A program made the translations under genes and the position numbers. This document shows, piece by piece, positions 1 to 41,508 of a stretch of DNA of 64,000 nucleotides. The DNA lies in the NCBI GenBank assembly GCA_947629005.1, contig CANRCD010000005.1, forward strand, positions 1-64,000, given 5' to 3'. Position 1 is the stretch's first letter. Each line of letters opens with the position of its first letter. Origin of the DNA: an uncultured Clostridia bacterium (lineage in GTDB: Bacteria > Bacillota > Clostridia > UMGS1883). The notes below the pieces were generated by a model, which did not search any database, was not told the origin of the DNA, and saw only the letters and a program-made list of their open reading frames with translations.

Positions 1-12
1 TAAAAAATTACT

Positions 13-2967
13 ATGAACAGTAAGAAAATTTTGGCTATGATAGTGGCCGTCGCCATGGTCGTAGCCATCGTTCCCGCGTTCACGCTGACAGCCGCCGCGG
101 TGGCAGGAGAACAAAGTATTTCAGCAACCAATGCCTACAGTATGAATAGCTCCGATGTTAAGGAAGACGACCTTTCAGTAATCGGAGAAAATTCTATGAG
201 CAAACGAATTACTTTGATCGGGTTTGACGTTCCTAATCTTGAGGAAAACGAAATTATAACCAAGGCTGAGCTTGTTCTTACAGTTAAGGACGTAACTAAC
301 GGCGATTCAACTATTACCGTGGACGACGCTTCGACTATATGGACGAAAAAGAGCTCTACCATAACTTGGCAAGAATCAGGCTCTGATATTTCGCTCCCTT
401 CCGTGACAGAGTTTGGTGTAACGTCCGGCGATAAGGGCAAAACCATAGTAATAGACGTAACCGACTATGTTGCAACAAAAGCAGGGGATTTTGCTTCTTT
501 TAGATTGAGAAACTTTACGCCAAAATCCGGCAACAAATCCAATATTGTCAAGTTTTACAACACATCTGACGATGCACATGCCCCGAAGCTTAACATTTCC
601 ATAAAAGAAAAGGCCTCCATAACTGTCAATTTCAAGACAAAGTCCGGCGAACCTCTTAATACGGAAATGCTTCAAGGATATGTAGGCGACACATATACCT
701 ACACAAATTCGGTAAACGACAACTATGCTATAATTGAAAAAGACGGAAGCGATGGTAATTTTGGATACATAGCCGAGATTCTCGAGTCTAACCCTACGGA
801 GGTAGTTTCCGGCGGGATCGAGGTCGATGTTATCGTTGCACCAAAATATAAGCTTAAATCAAAGAACCTATTGCCGGACGGCGAAGACGGGTTGGATCAG
901 TATACCGTCGGCAGCGGTACAGCAGGGAATTATACAACACAGATTCTGAGTGCGGGCGGCAATCTCAGAAAGACTGATGAAAAAGCTCATTCCGGAAGCA
1001 ATTCTATAAAAACCACAAACAATGGATGGGGTGCCGGCGATAGCTTGTGGTCATGGTATGGTTCAAATTCTCTTGTTATGTACAGAGAAGTAAATGCCAA
1101 TTCAAAATATTACTTTGCCGGTTCGTTCTTCCCCGGCGCCGCCAGAGGAACACAGGCAACCATTGCAACTCTTGCCGCCGCTAATGACCCTACATCCATG
1201 CAGGGAATTGAAGACGGAGCCGACGAGCCCGGCGGCGGAAAAATATTAAGCAATGGTGGCGTTACTTCATGGAATGGTCTTGAGCTAACAAAGTCATCTG
1301 GTACCGGAACCAACAATAATAAATCATGGCCGGGCAATGAGGACGGTGGGAAACTCTTCCCCAACATGACCGGTAAGTGGAATCAACTTGAATATGAGCT
1401 TACTACGGATGCAAATTCCAAAGGATTTATGGCGGCGTTCTACTATACGCTCGATTGCGGAACAAGCTTCTTTGATGATTTCATGCTCTACGAAGTGGAA
1501 GATTATGCTGATGAGCTAGAAAGTATTGAAAAAGCAAATATAACCGTAATCGAGGGCAATGATCCCATTCTTCCCAAAAAACTTACAGGGCATACTAAGA
1601 ACGGGCTTGCCGTTAATGTTGACATTGATTGGGACCTTGGCTCCGTTGATTTTACTAATGCAAATAGCCCTGTAACGGTGAACGGCCATGCACACGACGA
1701 AACGGGCGTTGCTGCCGAGGCGACTGTAACAGTCCTTCCGAATACCTTTGAAATGGGAAATATTACATCTGTTTCTTGCAAGCAAGGCGAATATGCAGGA
1801 AAAGCGCATAAATTCCCGAAGAATATTGTTTTCGCGAAAGATTTCAGCGTGGAGTTTGACTATAAAGTGAACAGTATAGCTGACGCGTCTATTCAGGTCT
1901 GCAAGGATGGCGCGATATTTGGAGATGGCGCTGTGGCCATTGGCATAGGCGGCGCTCTCCTTAATGTGACCTCAGGTAAGGGACTTACCGACAGCAGCAG
2001 AGTTTCAACCAATTTGTTTACAGTCGCTGTTGGCGAGCAGTACCGTGTACTCATTAACATTAAAACAGAAGAAAAAATGTTTAATGTAACCGTTACTAAG
2101 CCCGATGGCACAAGCTACTCCACTGAAGACGTTTACTTCAGAAATTGCGGCAAGCATGATGTTATAAACACCATAGGCGCACTCTCCAATTCGGAATCTG
2201 GTAACACTGCGGACGGCGATATTGAGATGCTCAACATAAAGATTTATGACGCCAACTACAAGGAGTTTAAGGCTCTTGCTCCCGAGCTTGCTTGGACTGG
2301 AGAGGACTTTGCCATAAACTTCCTGTTTGGCGACGATGCTGATGATGGAACTTATACCATTAATGTAACCAAGAAGAATGCCGAAACCAAGGAATTTACC
2401 GAAACTGTTAACAACACAGCGACGGTTGAGGTAAACGATACTGTGAAGGGCTTTACACTTAACGGAAAGAGCAATGACATTTATAAGGCCGAAGCTGTAA
2501 ATGGCGATGTTGTTACTGCTGATATGACTAACGGCGTAAGCGTATACGGCCTTGTTATGAAGGCTCTCAGCGAGCTCACCCTTGCTGACGGCGACAAAAT
2601 ACTTGCCGAACAGATCGACGCTGTCAATAAGGTTGTAAACGATGGAGGTCTTTACATCAAGGACGGCGCTCTTCCTATCGAGGCTGTTGGCATTCTAAGC
2701 TATGATTCGGCTGAAAACACTGTCACCATCAATGATAAGCTGTTCAATGCCGGCTTGAAGTTTGAAATGGTTAAGTACACCAGCGGAGAAGATGTAGATA
2801 AGGATGCAACAATTGAGGATGCTGGCAAGACGGCAAAGCTTAGCTCCGCCATGTCTGCCGGTCTTGACGAGATTTTCCTCAGCGAGATCGAGTTTGTATT
2901 TGAACCCGGCGAGGTAGCGGAGGAAGCCGACGAAGCCGGTACTATTGACTTCGTTGAGGAGATATAA
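13..2967 (+). CDS. Large secreted modular carbohydrate-binding-like surface protein (cassette A)
   Basis: The 984-residue protein starts with a clear signal peptide (MNSKKILAMIV..., cleavage probably near residue 32 after a TAAAVA-like stretch). What follows looks like a chain of binding modules: a DNRLRE/CBM96-like beta domain (about 35-200), a MucBP-like stretch (about 205-280), a CBM4/9-like jelly roll ending in DDFMLYEV (about 285-500), a bacterial Ig-like Big_4 domain (about 510-575), a LamG/CBM-like domain (about 580-755) and a C-terminal module (about 760-984). That last module contains SVYGLVMKA, AEQIDAVN and NDGGLY and ends in an acidic tail, FVEEI. I see no catalytic motif, LPXTG or SLH anchor. 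The C-terminal module recurs in the inverted partial gene at 12965-13972. A 53-residue peptide gene follows 14 nt downstream and is surely co-transcribed. Base composition is AT-richer than in the neighbours. The promoter lies outside the window. Domain names are by pattern; the function (glycan binding at the surface) is inferred. Confidence 0.8.
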   Translation: MNSKKILAMIVAVAMVVAIVPAFTLTAAAVAGEQSISATNAYSMNSSDVKEDDLSVIGENSMSKRITLIGFDVPNLEENEIITKAELVLTVKDVTNGDSTITVDDASTIWTKKSSTITWQESGSDISLPSVTEFGVTSGDKGKTIVIDVTDYVATKAGDFASFRLRNFTPKSGNKSNIVKFYNTSDDAHAPKLNISIKEKASITVNFKTKSGEPLNTEMLQGYVGDTYTYTNSVNDNYAIIEKDGSDGNFGYIAEILESNPTEVVSGGIEVDVIVAPKYKLKSKNLLPDGEDGLDQYTVGSGTAGNYTTQILSAGGNLRKTDEKAHSGSNSIKTTNNGWGAGDSLWSWYGSNSLVMYREVNANSKYYFAGSFFPGAARGTQATIATLAAANDPTSMQGIEDGADEPGGGKILSNGGVTSWNGLELTKSSGTGTNNNKSWPGNEDGGKLFPNMTGKWNQLEYELTTDANSKGFMAAFYYTLDCGTSFFDDFMLYEVEDYADELESIEKANITVIEGNDPILPKKLTGHTKNGLAVNVDIDWDLGSVDFTNANSPVTVNGHAHDETGVAAEATVTVLPNTFEMGNITSVSCKQGEYAGKAHKFPKNIVFAKDFSVEFDYKVNSIADASIQVCKDGAIFGDGAVAIGIGGALLNVTSGKGLTDSSRVSTNLFTVAVGEQYRVLINIKTEEKMFNVTVTKPDGTSYSTEDVYFRNCGKHDVINTIGALSNSESGNTADGDIEMLNIKIYDANYKEFKALAPELAWTGEDFAINFLFGDDADDGTYTINVTKKNAETKEFTETVNNTATVEVNDTVKGFTLNGKSNDIYKAEAVNGDVVTADMTNGVSVYGLVMKALSELTLADGDKILAEQIDAVNKVVNDGGLYIKDGALPIEAVGILSYDSAENTVTINDKLFNAGLKFEMVKYTSGEDVDKDATIEDAGKTAKLSSAMSAGLDEIFLSEIEFVFEPGEVAEEADEAGTIDFVEEI

Positions 2968-2981
2968 GGAGGGCGAAGACT

Positions 2982-3143
2982 ATGAAGAAATTTATTGTTC
3001 CCGAGATCAACGTCGTTAATCTCGACCAGCAGGACGCGATTATGACTTCCCCCGGTATTACAGATAAGCGCGCGCTTACAACTGTCATTACTGATGAAAC
3101 GAGCGCACAGTATAATATGTGGAAAGGCTATGACGCCGAGTAA
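2982..3143 (+). CDS. 53-residue conserved peptide, cassette A
   Basis: A 53-codon gene begins with ATG behind a strong ribosome site (AAGGAGG at 2967-2973), 14 nt after the surface-protein stop. The product starts MKKFIVPEINVV, has DAIMTSPG in the middle and ends QYNMWKGYDAE. It is hydrophilic with no signal peptide, membrane segment or cysteine. A homologue of identical length lies on the other strand at 12789-12950; 33 of 53 positions are the same, which argues strongly that the gene is real. It is followed directly by a terminator. Short MKKF-x-x-PE...TS peptides next to secreted proteins resemble small Clostridia hypothetical proteins I have seen, but I know of no established function. 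Confidence 0.82.
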   Translation: MKKFIVPEINVVNLDQQDAIMTSPGITDKRALTTVITDETSAQYNMWKGYDAE

Positions 3144-12788: not shown

Positions 12789-12950
12789 TTATTCGGCGTT
12801 AAAGCCTTTCCACATCTCGTATTGCGCTGAAGTGTCATCTGCAACGACCTTGGTAAATGTGTTTTTATCCGTAACGCCAAGGGAATTCATAATCACATCA
12901 GCCTGACCGAGTTCAACTGTGTTGACCTCGGGAGCAATAAATTTCTTCAT
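12789..12950 (-). CDS. 53-residue conserved peptide, cassette B
   Basis: This is the homologue of the peptide at 2982-3143: same length, 33 of 53 residues identical, including MKKFI, PE, TDK, TSAQY and MWKG. The ATG lies behind AAGGAGG in a spacer nearly identical to that of cassette A and only 14 nt after the stop of the truncated surface-protein gene. It has no cysteine, signal peptide or membrane segment. Conservation of the peptide, its spacing and its terminator, while the large gene has diverged or broken, suggests the peptide is under selection. Function is not known. Confidence 0.8.
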   Translation of the reverse strand: MKKFIAPEVNTVELGQADVIMNSLGVTDKNTFTKVVADDTSAQYEMWKGFNAE

Positions 12951-12964
12951 GGTTTTCGCCCTCC

Positions 12965-13972
12965 TTATATCTCTTCAACAAAGTCTACCAAACCGGTCTC
13001 GTCGGCTATTTTGGATACCTCGTCGGGCTCAAAAACAAATTCGATTTCCTCAAGGAATATATCCTCAAGTTCCTCCATATCGCCTGAGGTAATGGTTATC
13101 GTTACTGACTTGCCGTCATCGGCGACCACTGCGGTAGCATTAGCTATGGTGGTTATTGTTTTGGCATTGGCAAAGGATAAACCGGCATTGCTGGTAATAT
13201 CCGTAATCGTTACGGTCAGGGTGTTTTTTGCGCTGGATTTAAGAGTAAGAACATCTTTTACCTCGTCGGTGAGCCTATACTTGAGAGTATCCTCAGCACT
13301 ATCGTCAGCTATCAAATACAGGCCACCGTCATTAAGCACGGTGTTGATCGCATCAATCTGCTCGGCTGCAATGATATCTCCCTCGCCGATGCTGGCAATA
13401 GCCCTCATAACAAGGCCGTAGACACTGGCCTTAGTGCTGTCATTCCCGCCTTTAACCCTTGCGGAGTAAATCGCGTTGGAACTTGCGGGCTTAACGGCAA
13501 CGCCGTTAACAGAGCCGCTTGCGACAACTTCTGCATTGGCGGCAGCGCTTTCTGCATTGGCGGCGTTGAATACGCTTACGCTATATGTAGTGTCGGTCTT
13601 AGCGTTTTCAAACAGGAAATCAACGGTGAAAGCATTCTCGTTCCAGCCAAGAGCAGGAATAAGATCTACGGGCGCAGGAATGAGACTGATGTCGTCTGTA
13701 AGGCCCCAAAGGATGTTGTGGCCATTGCAAAGCAACACGACCTTATTGTTGCCTTTGGCCTTCTCGGTTATTTTTGCAGTGTCTACATCGGTAATATGAT
13801 TTCCAAAGGTTTTTTGGTTGCTATCGTTTGTGCCTTTGCCGGTAGTAATGATATTGTTTTGTATGGCCTTGTATACTGCGGCTCTATCGGCTATATCAAG
13901 AGCGCTAAACTCTTCAAGACTAATTGCCGCGATATAGGTGTGGCTTGCGCCATTTCCTTGATAGCGATTCAA
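12965..13972 (-). CDS. 5'-truncated surface-protein tail carrying the cassette C-terminal module
   Basis: The 335-residue frame has no ATG near its 5' end; the nearest start is TTG at 13972, with no ribosome site, and the open frame runs to a stop at 14015-14017. The sequence just before the TTG (FSSEIIAGL) reads as normal protein, so the 5' end looks cut off. The C-terminal 200 residues match the last module of the 984-residue protein (SVYGLVMRA, AEQIDAIN, NDGGLY, IFLEEIEFVFEP, FVEEI). No signal peptide remains, so export of the present product is unlikely. It precedes the 53-residue peptide by 14 nt. I read it as the tail half of a gene whose head now lies inverted at 14039-15088. Confidence 0.65.
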   Translation of the reverse strand: MNRYQGNGASHTYIAAISLEEFSALDIADRAAVYKAIQNNIITTGKGTNDSNQKTFGNHITDVDTAKITEKAKGNNKVVLLCNGHNILWGLTDDISLIPAPVDLIPALGWNENAFTVDFLFENAKTDTTYSVSVFNAANAESAAANAEVVASGSVNGVAVKPASSNAIYSARVKGGNDSTKASVYGLVMRAIASIGEGDIIAAEQIDAINTVLNDGGLYLIADDSAEDTLKYRLTDEVKDVLTLKSSAKNTLTVTITDITSNAGLSFANAKTITTIANATAVVADDGKSVTITITSGDMEELEDIFLEEIEFVFEPDEVSKIADETGLVDFVEEI

Positions 13973-14038
13973 ACCAGCGATTATTTCTGACGAAAAACCG
14001 GCCTTGCGGAAACATTAAGAAGGAGGTTAATTTTAACT

Positions 14039-15088
14039 ATGAACAGGACAAAAATTTTGGCTATGATTATGGCATTTGCTATTGTCATGGTCGTCGTATT
14101 TGCTATCGGAATTGTTGCCGTAGCAAGCGAAAATCTCGCTTCGTATGAAGGACTAGGCCCAGAGAACAGCTGGTTTGCCACAGCCAATCAAAACAACAAC
14201 AATAAAAATACTAACCTTGGCCAAAATTTCAGCGGACATCTAAAAATAGAATTCGACCTAATGTACCCTGAAACGCCAGACAGCAGTACACTTATTGCAT
14301 TCTCAAAAGACAACGGCACATTCGGCAATGCGGAAATATCTATCCAAGGCTGAAATTTAAATAATGTAAATTTTCATTTAACAAGTGATACGTATGCCGG
14401 ATCGTTTGCAATTGAACTTAACCATATGTACCATCTAGTTTTGGAAACCACCGTTCCCGAAAACACATATAGTGCTCAAGTAACGGACGCCATTACGGGC
14501 GAGGCTGTTATGATAACGCATTCTGGCGACGGAGAAGCTGTTACAAAGCTTGAAAGTATTTCCTACAGAAATAATGGTATAGATGCTATCAACTCTATGG
14601 TTATGCTTCAGAACGACGGTCGTAATGATTCGTCTAATAACCGAGCTAGACTTACGAATCTTAAAATTTATGAGTTTGACGTACCCTCCAAGGAAATTAC
14701 GGTAAACTACACGTGCGACGGCCAATTGGTCGGCACAGCAAAGGTACACGTTAAATCTGACGCGAATGAGTATTCAGTAGCAAAAAATGCTTTGGTGAAC
14801 GGTACGAACGCAAAATATTATATTGAATCGGAACAGACCATCACTATTGAATGCGACACTGTTACCGTGCTGGTTAAATCACTTGGCAGTTGTTCTAAAT
14901 CCGTGATAACAAGCTTTGGGACGCTGACGCTGGCATTGGCAACGGCGCCAACGGCACAAACAGTTTCTGTGCCTTCAACTGGGGTGTGCTTGGCACTTAT
15001 GACAGAATGGGGGGTTGCCATTGTTGACGTTCCCTCTATTGGAGCCGAGGATGTGTTCAATATTATCGCGATTAATGCAGGCAACTGA
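14039..15088 (+). pseudogene. Broken surface-protein head with decayed signal peptide
   Basis: A gene start behind AAGGAGG (14031-14037 region) encodes MNRTKILAMIM..., clearly related to the start of the 984-residue protein but with the cleavage region altered. Translation stops at an in-frame TGA (14351-14353). After it the same frame continues with sequence resembling residues 600-755 of the intact protein (RLTNLKIYEF), then a MucBP-like stretch (KEITVNYTCDGQLVGTAK). From about 14890 to 15005 another frame reads better (DNKLWDADAGIGNG, FCAFNWGVLGTYDR), returning to the first frame at a run of six G. One stop and two compensating frameshifts point to decay, or to sequencing error in part. 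No C-terminal module follows. Confidence 0.68.
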
Positions 15089-15606
15089 GCTAACGAGCGG
15101 TAGCCGGTAAAATTTTGAACGGAACAAGCAAGTATGGTATTATAGATTATTATTAGATATACAGTTGCTTTATCGTGCATATATTAATGATCTAACATTA
15201 ATTGTAACACATTATATTTTATATCTCATCTTAAGACTTGCCGCTTTTTAACATTAAAACGGCGAGTAAAATGTACATTTTAGAAAAAGTTTTTTCCGCA
15301 AAAATTTTGCTTTAAATTTTGCTTTAAAAATTAGTGCGAATTAATGAGAAAATATGATATATTTTTCTGTGCGTGTATATCGGACGGGCGGCGGAGCAAG
15401 AGCCGCGAGGGACAATTTTTTAAAAAATTGTAACAAATAACAAAAACAGTTGCATTACCGTTGGATTTATGCTAAAATTATGATGTATGTTTATATACGC
15501 GTACTGCGCGCTTTGCGCAGCGCGGAAGCCATGAGAGGCGAAAAAGCCCGCGGGAATGCCCGCGCGGCGAGGAAACTCGTTCACAATCGGTGAAAGGAGA
15601 AAAATT
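15089..15606. other. AT-rich intergenic region with palindromes and a leader
   Basis: No gene is visible. The first 350 nt are strongly AT-rich and contain two perfect palindromes: a 16-nt one at 15267-15282 (TAAAATGT/ACATTTTA) and a 20-nt one at 15412-15431 (ACAATTTTTT/AAAAAATTGT). From 15479 to 15606 lies a GC-rich, hairpin-prone leader of the hemolysin III gene that matches no riboswitch I recognise. Confidence 0.5.
15450..15478 (+). promoter_or_regulatory. SigA-type promoter of the hemolysin III gene
   Basis: TTGCAT (15450-15455), a 17-nt spacer and TAAAAT (15473-15478). The resulting leader is about 120 nt. Confidence 0.68.
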
Positions 15607-16269
15607 ATGACTACAGCGGCAAGGCGTCGGGGAAAGCTGTATTCCGTCGGCGAGGAAATATTCAGCTCGGTATCGCACGGCATAGGCGCGCTTATCGGCG
15701 TCGCCGCGCTGGCGCTGATGGTGGTTTTTGCCGCCCGCGCTCACAACATTTACGGCGTGGTGAGCGGCGCGATTTACGGCTCAACCATGATAATTCTTTT
15801 TACAATGAGCACGCTCTACCACGCTATTCAGGCCCCTCGGGCGAAAAAGGTTTTCCGTGTGATGGATCATTGCAGCATATATCTGCTTATCGCCGGAACC
15901 TATACTCCCATAACGCTTTGCACGGTACGCCAGCACGGCGGCTGGGTGATGTTCGGCGTGGTGTGGGGAGTGACGGTGCTGGGCATTGTGCTCAACTCTA
16001 TCAGCCTTGAAAAATTTAAGCTGGTAAGCCTTATCAGCTACATTGTCATGGGCTGGGCTGTCGTCGCAATGATTGGGCCCATCAGGGCCGCTCTTCCCGC
16101 GGCCGGCATTTGGCTGCTGGTTTCCGGCGGGTTGGTATACATGGTCGGCGTAGTGTTTTATTGCATGAAAAAAATAGCCTATATGCACTCTATATGGCAC
16201 CTGTTCGTACTGGGAGGAAGTATTCTGCACTTTTTGTGCATACTGCTTTACGTGATGCCGGTCAAGTAA
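15607..16269 (+). CDS. Hemolysin III / YqfA family membrane protein (PAQR-like)
   Basis: The 220-residue seven-span protein contains the hemolysin III signatures EEIFSSVSHGIGALIG near the N-terminus, STLYHAI, MDHCSIYLLIAGTYTP and the C-terminal HSIWHLFVLGGSILHF, whose conserved histidines and aspartate suggest the PAQR-type metal site. The molecular role in bacteria is uncertain. I start at ATG 15607 (MTTAARRRG) behind AAAGGAG. A MITE-like element begins at its stop codon. Confidence 0.92.
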   Translation: MTTAARRRGKLYSVGEEIFSSVSHGIGALIGVAALALMVVFAARAHNIYGVVSGAIYGSTMIILFTMSTLYHAIQAPRAKKVFRVMDHCSIYLLIAGTYTPITLCTVRQHGGWVMFGVVWGVTVLGIVLNSISLEKFKLVSLISYIVMGWAVVAMIGPIRAALPAAGIWLLVSGGLVYMVGVVFYCMKKIAYMHSIWHLFVLGGSILHFLCILLYVMPVK

Positions 16270-16502
16270 ACGCTGATTAAATCTGGCGCGTTGACTGGCG
16301 AGAAAAATTTTCACGAGGCAAGGCAAAAAGCCCAGGGATACTTTATGTATTCCGAGAATAAGGGGCCCAAAAAAACTCAAGCGCTTGAGTTTTTGGGAAA
16401 GAGGAGGAGCAAAGTCTCCCTTTGCGACGACGATAACGCGGCATCGGGGAAATTTGGCCGACAAGCGACGTGCCAAGCAAAAGCGTGATTTAATCAGCGT
16501 TT
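16268..16502 (+). mobile_element. MITE-like element with 16-bp terminal inverted repeats
   Basis: Perfect 16-bp inverted ends (AAACGCTGATTAAATC at 16268-16283 and its complement at 16487-16502) bound a 235-bp stretch with no coding capacity. Inside is a 24-nt perfect palindrome at 16371-16394 (arms AAAAACTCAAGC / GCTTGAGTTTTT). The left end overlaps the last two bases of the hemolysin stop codon. I cannot identify a target duplication with confidence. Its transposase family is unknown. Confidence 0.6.
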
Positions 16503-16549
16503 GCTTTAGGCGTGACCGATATATTTTTACTACCGAAAGGAAGATTGTT

Positions 16550-38905: not shown

Positions 38906-39160
38906 GAGGCCGTAAAAAAATACGTGCAGACCGTTCAAGGGCTGAATGTGTTATGTTAATGCGACCAAGAAGTATCATTTTGTGAGAATAAAATGATGAA
39001 TTGACGAAGAACATCCGCTTTAAAGAGCGGATGTTCTTCGTTTTAAGCCCTTGAACCACGAACGAAAATCACCCTCGGCGTACCTGTGTACCGCTTGCTC
39101 GGCGGCAGGCGTTAGTCTGTTTTCCGCCGCTTTGCGGCGCCGCCTGCGCGAGTTTGATTT
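38906..39160 (+). repeat. Dispersed intergenic repeat, copy 2
   Basis: The stretch begins GAGGCCGTAAAAAAA, holds the hairpin at 39005-39040, then CACGAACGAAAATCACCC and CGGCGTACC, and ends GCCTGCGCGAG. It corresponds base for base, with gaps, to 8805-9056. The 446-nt gap 38897-39342 contains this repeat and the promoter of the next gene and nothing else I can see. Confidence 0.72.
39005..39044 (+). terminator. Long hairpin (terminator-like) in repeat copy 2
   Basis: A 15-bp perfect stem (CGAAGAACATCCGCT / AGCGGATGTTCTTCG) followed by TTTT; downstream of the SLH gene. Confidence 0.7.
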
Positions 39161-41289: not shown

Positions 41290-41508
41290 TCATTACCGCT
41301 TCGCCGCAATGCGGCGGCAAAACAGGCGAACGCCTGCGACGAGGGTAATTTTCGTTTGTGGTTCAAGGGTATAAAATGAGAAAAATCCGCTCAATGGAGC
41401 GGATTTTTCTCATTAATACATTGCTTTTTCGTTAACCTGTAATACTCAAGGCGGACTTAAATAAGTACGTTTGGCCCCTGAGCGTTCTGCGCGACTTTTT
41501 TACGGCCG
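41290..41508 (-). repeat. Dispersed intergenic repeat, copy 3 (inverted)
   Basis: Read on the minus strand this starts ACGGCCGTAAAAAAGTCGC, passes through AAAGCAATGTATTAATG and the hairpin, then CCCTTGAACCACAAACGAAAA and TACCCTCG. It aligns with copies 1 and 2 and lies between convergent gene ends. Confidence 0.68.
41375..41418. terminator. 18-bp hairpin, bidirectional terminator candidate
   Basis: Perfect 18-bp arms (AATGAGAAAAATCCGCTC at 41375-41392 and complement at 41397-41414) with loop AATG, between the SLH gene and rpmE, both of which end here. Confidence 0.68.

Follow-up and report, generated by a model that had tools for sequence, protein, structure and literature searches.

Cassette B, which lies in the 64,000-nucleotide stretch analysed here (the window; contig CANRCD010000005.1 of an uncultured Clostridia bacterium), is probably a decaying copy from a genus-specific family of secreted proteins, rearranged by a static inversion. 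The ancestral cassette would have been a single minus-strand gene encoding a large secreted protein, with a leader, signal peptide, variable middle, internal domain and C-terminal module, and followed by a small-peptide gene. A segment of ~1.1 kb (13976-15081), comprising the leader, signal peptide and head, would have been turned round in one event of illegitimate recombination, which used 2-5 bp of microhomology and broke the gene inside the internal domain. This would leave the present tail with no start and no export signal, and the present head deprived of its C-terminal module and probably of its promoter too. Expression would thereby have been lost, and the inversion would be permanent.

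Layout of cassette B and its family

The features on which the analysis draws are as follows.

13-2967, plus strand: cassette A, an intact family member of 984 aa, used as the reference for comparison
12790-12951, minus strand: intact small-peptide gene of 53 codons (MKKFIAPEVN...WKGFNAE); a GGAGG sits between the tail end and this gene
12965-13975, minus strand: tail, an open frame with a remnant of the internal domain and the conserved C-terminal module ending in VDFVEEI; all 23 invariant columns are present
13974-13978, no strand assigned: fitted left inversion breakpoint (GCTGG on the minus strand), at the edge of the leader homology with contig C3; the junction was fitted with C2 (a paralogue) and G005_C199 (a cassette of a related species)
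13976-14027, plus strand: 5' leader ending in the ribosome site, with 51/52 positions matching C3:9-60; read in antisense, it supplies codons 1-13 of the tail
14020-14026, plus strand: AAGGAGG, the ribosome-binding site of the head, identified by sequence
14039-14353, plus strand: head start, with the signal peptide and the first part of the mature region, closed by an in-frame TGA (14351-14353)
14354-15081, plus strand: remaining head, which continues the frame of 14039, shifts out of it near 14896-14904 and returns through a compensating shift at a G run (15009-15014)
15077-15081, no strand assigned: fitted right inversion breakpoint (GCAGG), a frame-keeping junction
15082-15400, minus strand: AT-rich flank (about 31% G+C), which in the original order would have preceded the leader; a candidate for the former promoter region

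The head and tail lie divergently, as the first-pass annotation had described, and its account of a tail devoid of a start or signal peptide also holds: on the minus strand, a TAA at 14017-14015 is immediately followed by an open frame (14014 to 12965) that has no ribosome-binding site, start codon or signal peptide, the one TTG being at 13972. The frame does begin at 14014 as proposed, but its first 13 codons (14014-13976) are the antisense of the head's 5' leader. The head was described as carrying a ribosome site and a signal peptide like that of cassette A, with no C-terminal module. This is correct (ribosome site at about 14020-14026, ATG at 14039, signal peptide with 52% identity to its cassette A counterpart across 33 residues), but the TGA and the two frame changes break up the frame of the head. 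Pfam searches with the head and with the tail gave no match above the cut-off. No strong promoter was found in the flank at 15082-15400, and none was established on either side of the cassette.

The family is defined by a C-terminal (V/I)DFVEE(I/V) module, which in tail B comprises ~230 residues, and occurs in 8/8 genomes of the genus and in 0/90 other genomes searched. The present genome (2.04 Mb, 30 contigs) contains nine matches to the tail, of which all but B itself (eight) are each encoded in one unbroken frame, 926 to 1995 codons long. A small-peptide gene follows the module in 8/9 of these tails, tail B included, and the peptide encoded at 12790-12951 is 62% identical to that following cassette A (2982-3140). 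A family member should also open its frame with a signal peptide; tail B lacks a start codon and the signal peptide lies on the opposite strand, for which reason it is classed as a broken copy and not as a working member.

The module is fused to varied N-terminal parts, including heparinase-like, BNR, GH43 and Laminin-G domains (L014, L015, L017-L020), and a peptide gene of about 55 codons follows it in many cases across the genus, the two examples in the window being those at 2982-3140 and 12790-12951. Judging from the sequences, the module and peptide are possibly an undescribed export or anchoring pair. The predicted model of the module is fair (pLDDT 83) and yields only weak fibronectin-like matches. 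A 5' untranslated region is conserved between C2 (L020 800-1060) and a cassette of G005 (L083 4760-5040); it contains a TTGACA/TATAAT-like promoter and the conserved core AAACNGGTATGGGAGGCC, and matches no Rfam family. Elsewhere in the window, 85-nt imperfect inverted repeats (78%; 38996-39080 and 41337-41421) flank a gene for a 653-aa protein with SLH domains.

The locus of cassette B was not found in the relatives, and a protein scan of genome contigs with the tail gave nothing. In the closest relative, G004 (hlyIII 93% identical), YetF and hlyIII are neighbours, the cassette is missing and a different small gene is present, and the flank 15082-15400 is absent from this empty site. Due to the lack of a cassette, the syntenic site carries no information on orientation. 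The YetF loci of the other genomes contain no cassette either. Between hlyIII and a CorC-like gene, the window harbours a 243-bp element (16264-16506) with 20-bp terminal inverted repeats (95%), which looks like a miniature inverted-repeat transposable element by its sequence. The element has two more nearly complete copies (86-88%) and a split one on C3, and the gap between the two genes is nearly absent in G004.

Head and tail as probable parts of one gene

In the paralogue C2 the N terminus aligns to the head and the C terminus to the tail, and the same holds for G005_C193; in both, the N terminus is matched by the part of the head that holds the signal peptide. At the junction, with the head end read in the frames that match the homologues, residues 538-591 of C2 match the head end and residues from 608 onward match the tail start. 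In G005_C199, residues 1036-1067 match the head end and those from 1087 onward the tail start. When the head end is joined to the tail, the local score against C2 climbs from 86 to 121 and that against G005_C199 from 90 to 133; the joined score was attained by 1/2000 and 0/2000 shuffles of the head end, respectively. The head end alone scores 50 against C2, where the null maximum is 57; since this single alignment is weak, the evidence lies in the adjacency found in the two homologues together. Because the head end and tail start are adjacent and in one frame in C2 and G005_C199, cassette B was most likely one gene formerly. The rearrangement proposed in the first-pass annotation is thus supported insofar as an inversion is concerned.

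Flipping the segment does restore the head-to-tail order on the minus strand, as had been suggested, but the limits of 14017 and 15100 do not hold: the best breakpoints are 13974-13978 and 15077-15081. Re-inversion of 13976-15081 restores both order and phase, giving ...A-G-L-N-R-Y-Q..., with the phase-keeping GG core formed by joining 15080-15081 with 13974-13975. The homology common to both breakpoints amounts to ~2-5 bp, either an exact GG or GCWGG (4/5, with one mismatch). The earlier failure to find long inverted repeats was confirmed at the breakpoints first proposed and at the fitted ones, where no inverted repeats beyond chance are present; the best imperfect arms match at 9/11 positions, which 68% of random pairs at the same spacing equal or better.

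The disabling changes are all in the head, which contains the TGA at 14351-14353 and the two frameshifts (near 14896-14904 and at the G run 15009-15014), whereas the tail has none and keeps 23/23 columns that are invariant in 11 relatives. Three changes against none in a tail of like length would arise by chance about 1 time in 8, which is not significant, and no argument is built on this imbalance. With a nonsense codon and two frameshifts in the head, no full protein would result even from the restored orientation, and the locus is accordingly read as a decaying pseudogene and not as a two-state switch. The low third-position G+C of the head, given below, also counts in favour of this reading. 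The two halves, next to each other and in the same order in intact homologues, together with the disabling mutations, correspond to what is expected of a pseudogene split by inversion.

Alternatives to a static inversion

Two features run counter to a static inversion in a decaying copy. In an old pseudogene the tail would not have to stay undamaged with every invariant column intact, as it has here, and a random illegitimate event would not have to place the left breakpoint at the shared leader's edge. This leader is 52 bp long and recurs at the very start of C3 with one base different, the homology beginning at 13976. Compared with 147 relatives, the leader DNA has matches in this genome only; viral contigs gave no match to the leader, nor plasmids to the B locus. 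Cassette A and the cassette C3a are 97% identical over the first 103 bp (window 1-103, L014 60-162), both contigs ending there, and beyond this point show no DNA similarity except for a 28-bp stretch, until 69% identity is reached at the 3' end. This pattern suggests, at the level of sequence, a recent exchange of leader and signal peptide between cassettes, with the upstream contexts parting close to the leader edge.

Such recombination among family members, as between A and C3a, would also be compatible with an origin of the head and tail from two different cassettes, brought together by cassette copying or insertion and not by inversion of one gene. The left breakpoint at the leader edge fits this proposal, as does the lower third-position G+C of the head: 0.40, against 0.47-0.51 in A, C3a and C2 and, after allowing for a one-base phase offset, 0.50 in the tail, which resembles the intact members. 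However, the head end supplies the very piece that the tail is missing and keeps the phase, and unrelated fragments are not expected to complement each other within one domain. An origin from two cassettes is therefore unlikely.

The first-pass annotation had also considered a switchable 5' module. Here the segment 13976-15081 would be invertible, so that a recombinase encoded elsewhere would connect the tail to promoter, leader, signal peptide and head in one orientation and cut it off from them in the other. The in-frame junction obtained by re-inversion and the undamaged tail frame are in keeping with a switch, and the search for a recombinase elsewhere in the genome, which that annotation had advised, did return 7 tyrosine-recombinase (PF00589) and 3 resolvase (PF00239) domains, although none on C5 (the contig of the window) or C3. 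RecV, the recombinase of CwpV, likewise works at a distance from its switch (PMC2784873), so the lack of a recombinase domain on these two contigs decides nothing alone. The restored gene, however, would still stop at 14351 and shift frame twice, whereas an inverton has a functional gene in one orientation. In addition, the repeats typical of invertons (10-40 nt; PMC11892184) and of CwpV (21-bp imperfect; PMC2784873) have no counterpart beyond chance, and no second member of the family was found in such a state. A switch is thus improbable, and this part of the earlier interpretation is not supported.

Equally doubtful is the proposal that the 5' leader edge (13976; C3:9) is a recurrent recombination point, at which cassettes swap or flip their leader-signal-peptide ends and one upstream region can be linked to different cassettes, with B as a failed or resting product. 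In line with it, A and C3a have an exact 77-bp 5' end in common (C3:60-136 and C5:1-77), both contigs end there, and the upstream pieces are missing from the bin, in which contigs under about 2.7 kb are absent. From these contig ends we infer a possible hot spot of recombination at the leader edge. Exact common prefixes of 75-77 bp, as arise from a k=77 graph, also occur at many other contig ends of the assembly. A head-to-head pairing of A with C3a on either side of a single promoter found no support, the neighbouring marker genes being on different contigs in G003 and G006.

A misjoin of the two halves during assembly is very improbable: the 30 contigs are of a kind typical of metagenomes and related cassettes exist, but no k-mer of at least 10 crossing either junction is repeated within the window, which leaves the assembler no obvious cause for a misjoin, the sequence contains no Ns, and the many contig ends fall at the shared 75-77 bp stretches that the graph produces.

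If cassette B is a broken copy, it represents an ordinary outcome of gene-family turnover, and a divergent head and tail should not be taken for a phase switch without repeats or reads. If instead recombination is active at the leader edge, this would point to a way for an uncultured gut lineage to diversify its secreted enzymes and adhesins.

Comparison with known systems

Invertons, which are flanked by inverted repeats of 10-40 nt, and gene-altering DNA inversions are known from surface-protein genes in gut bacteria (PMC11892184, and Chanin et al., 2024, therein). Cassette B resembles them in that, in a gut Clostridia genome, a short segment of a surface-protein gene stands in the opposite orientation to the remainder, but differs in having no flanking repeats beyond chance, one known orientation and a damaged coding segment. 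The remote recombinase RecV operates the CwpV switch of Clostridioides difficile by inverting a 195-bp stretch, bounded by 21-bp imperfect repeats, that precedes the gene (PMC2784873). Both cases concern a clostridial secreted protein, and in both the inversion would part upstream signals from the rest of the gene. By contrast, the segment in cassette B is 1.1 kb long, includes the start and signal peptide, and has no repeats of the 21-bp type.

In the Vsa-type switching of 5' ends in Mycoplasma pulmonis, a near-identical leader and signal peptide precede unrelated mature parts. Cassettes A and C3a show the same combination. Unlike in Vsa, the other members of the cassette family keep their own starts, and no expression site or recombination site is apparent. 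Pseudogenes that originate from microhomology-mediated inversion have breakpoints within the gene with 2-5 bp in common, and carry further disabling mutations. Cassette B departs from such pseudogenes in that its tail half is still undamaged and one of its breakpoints coincides with the edge of the shared leader.
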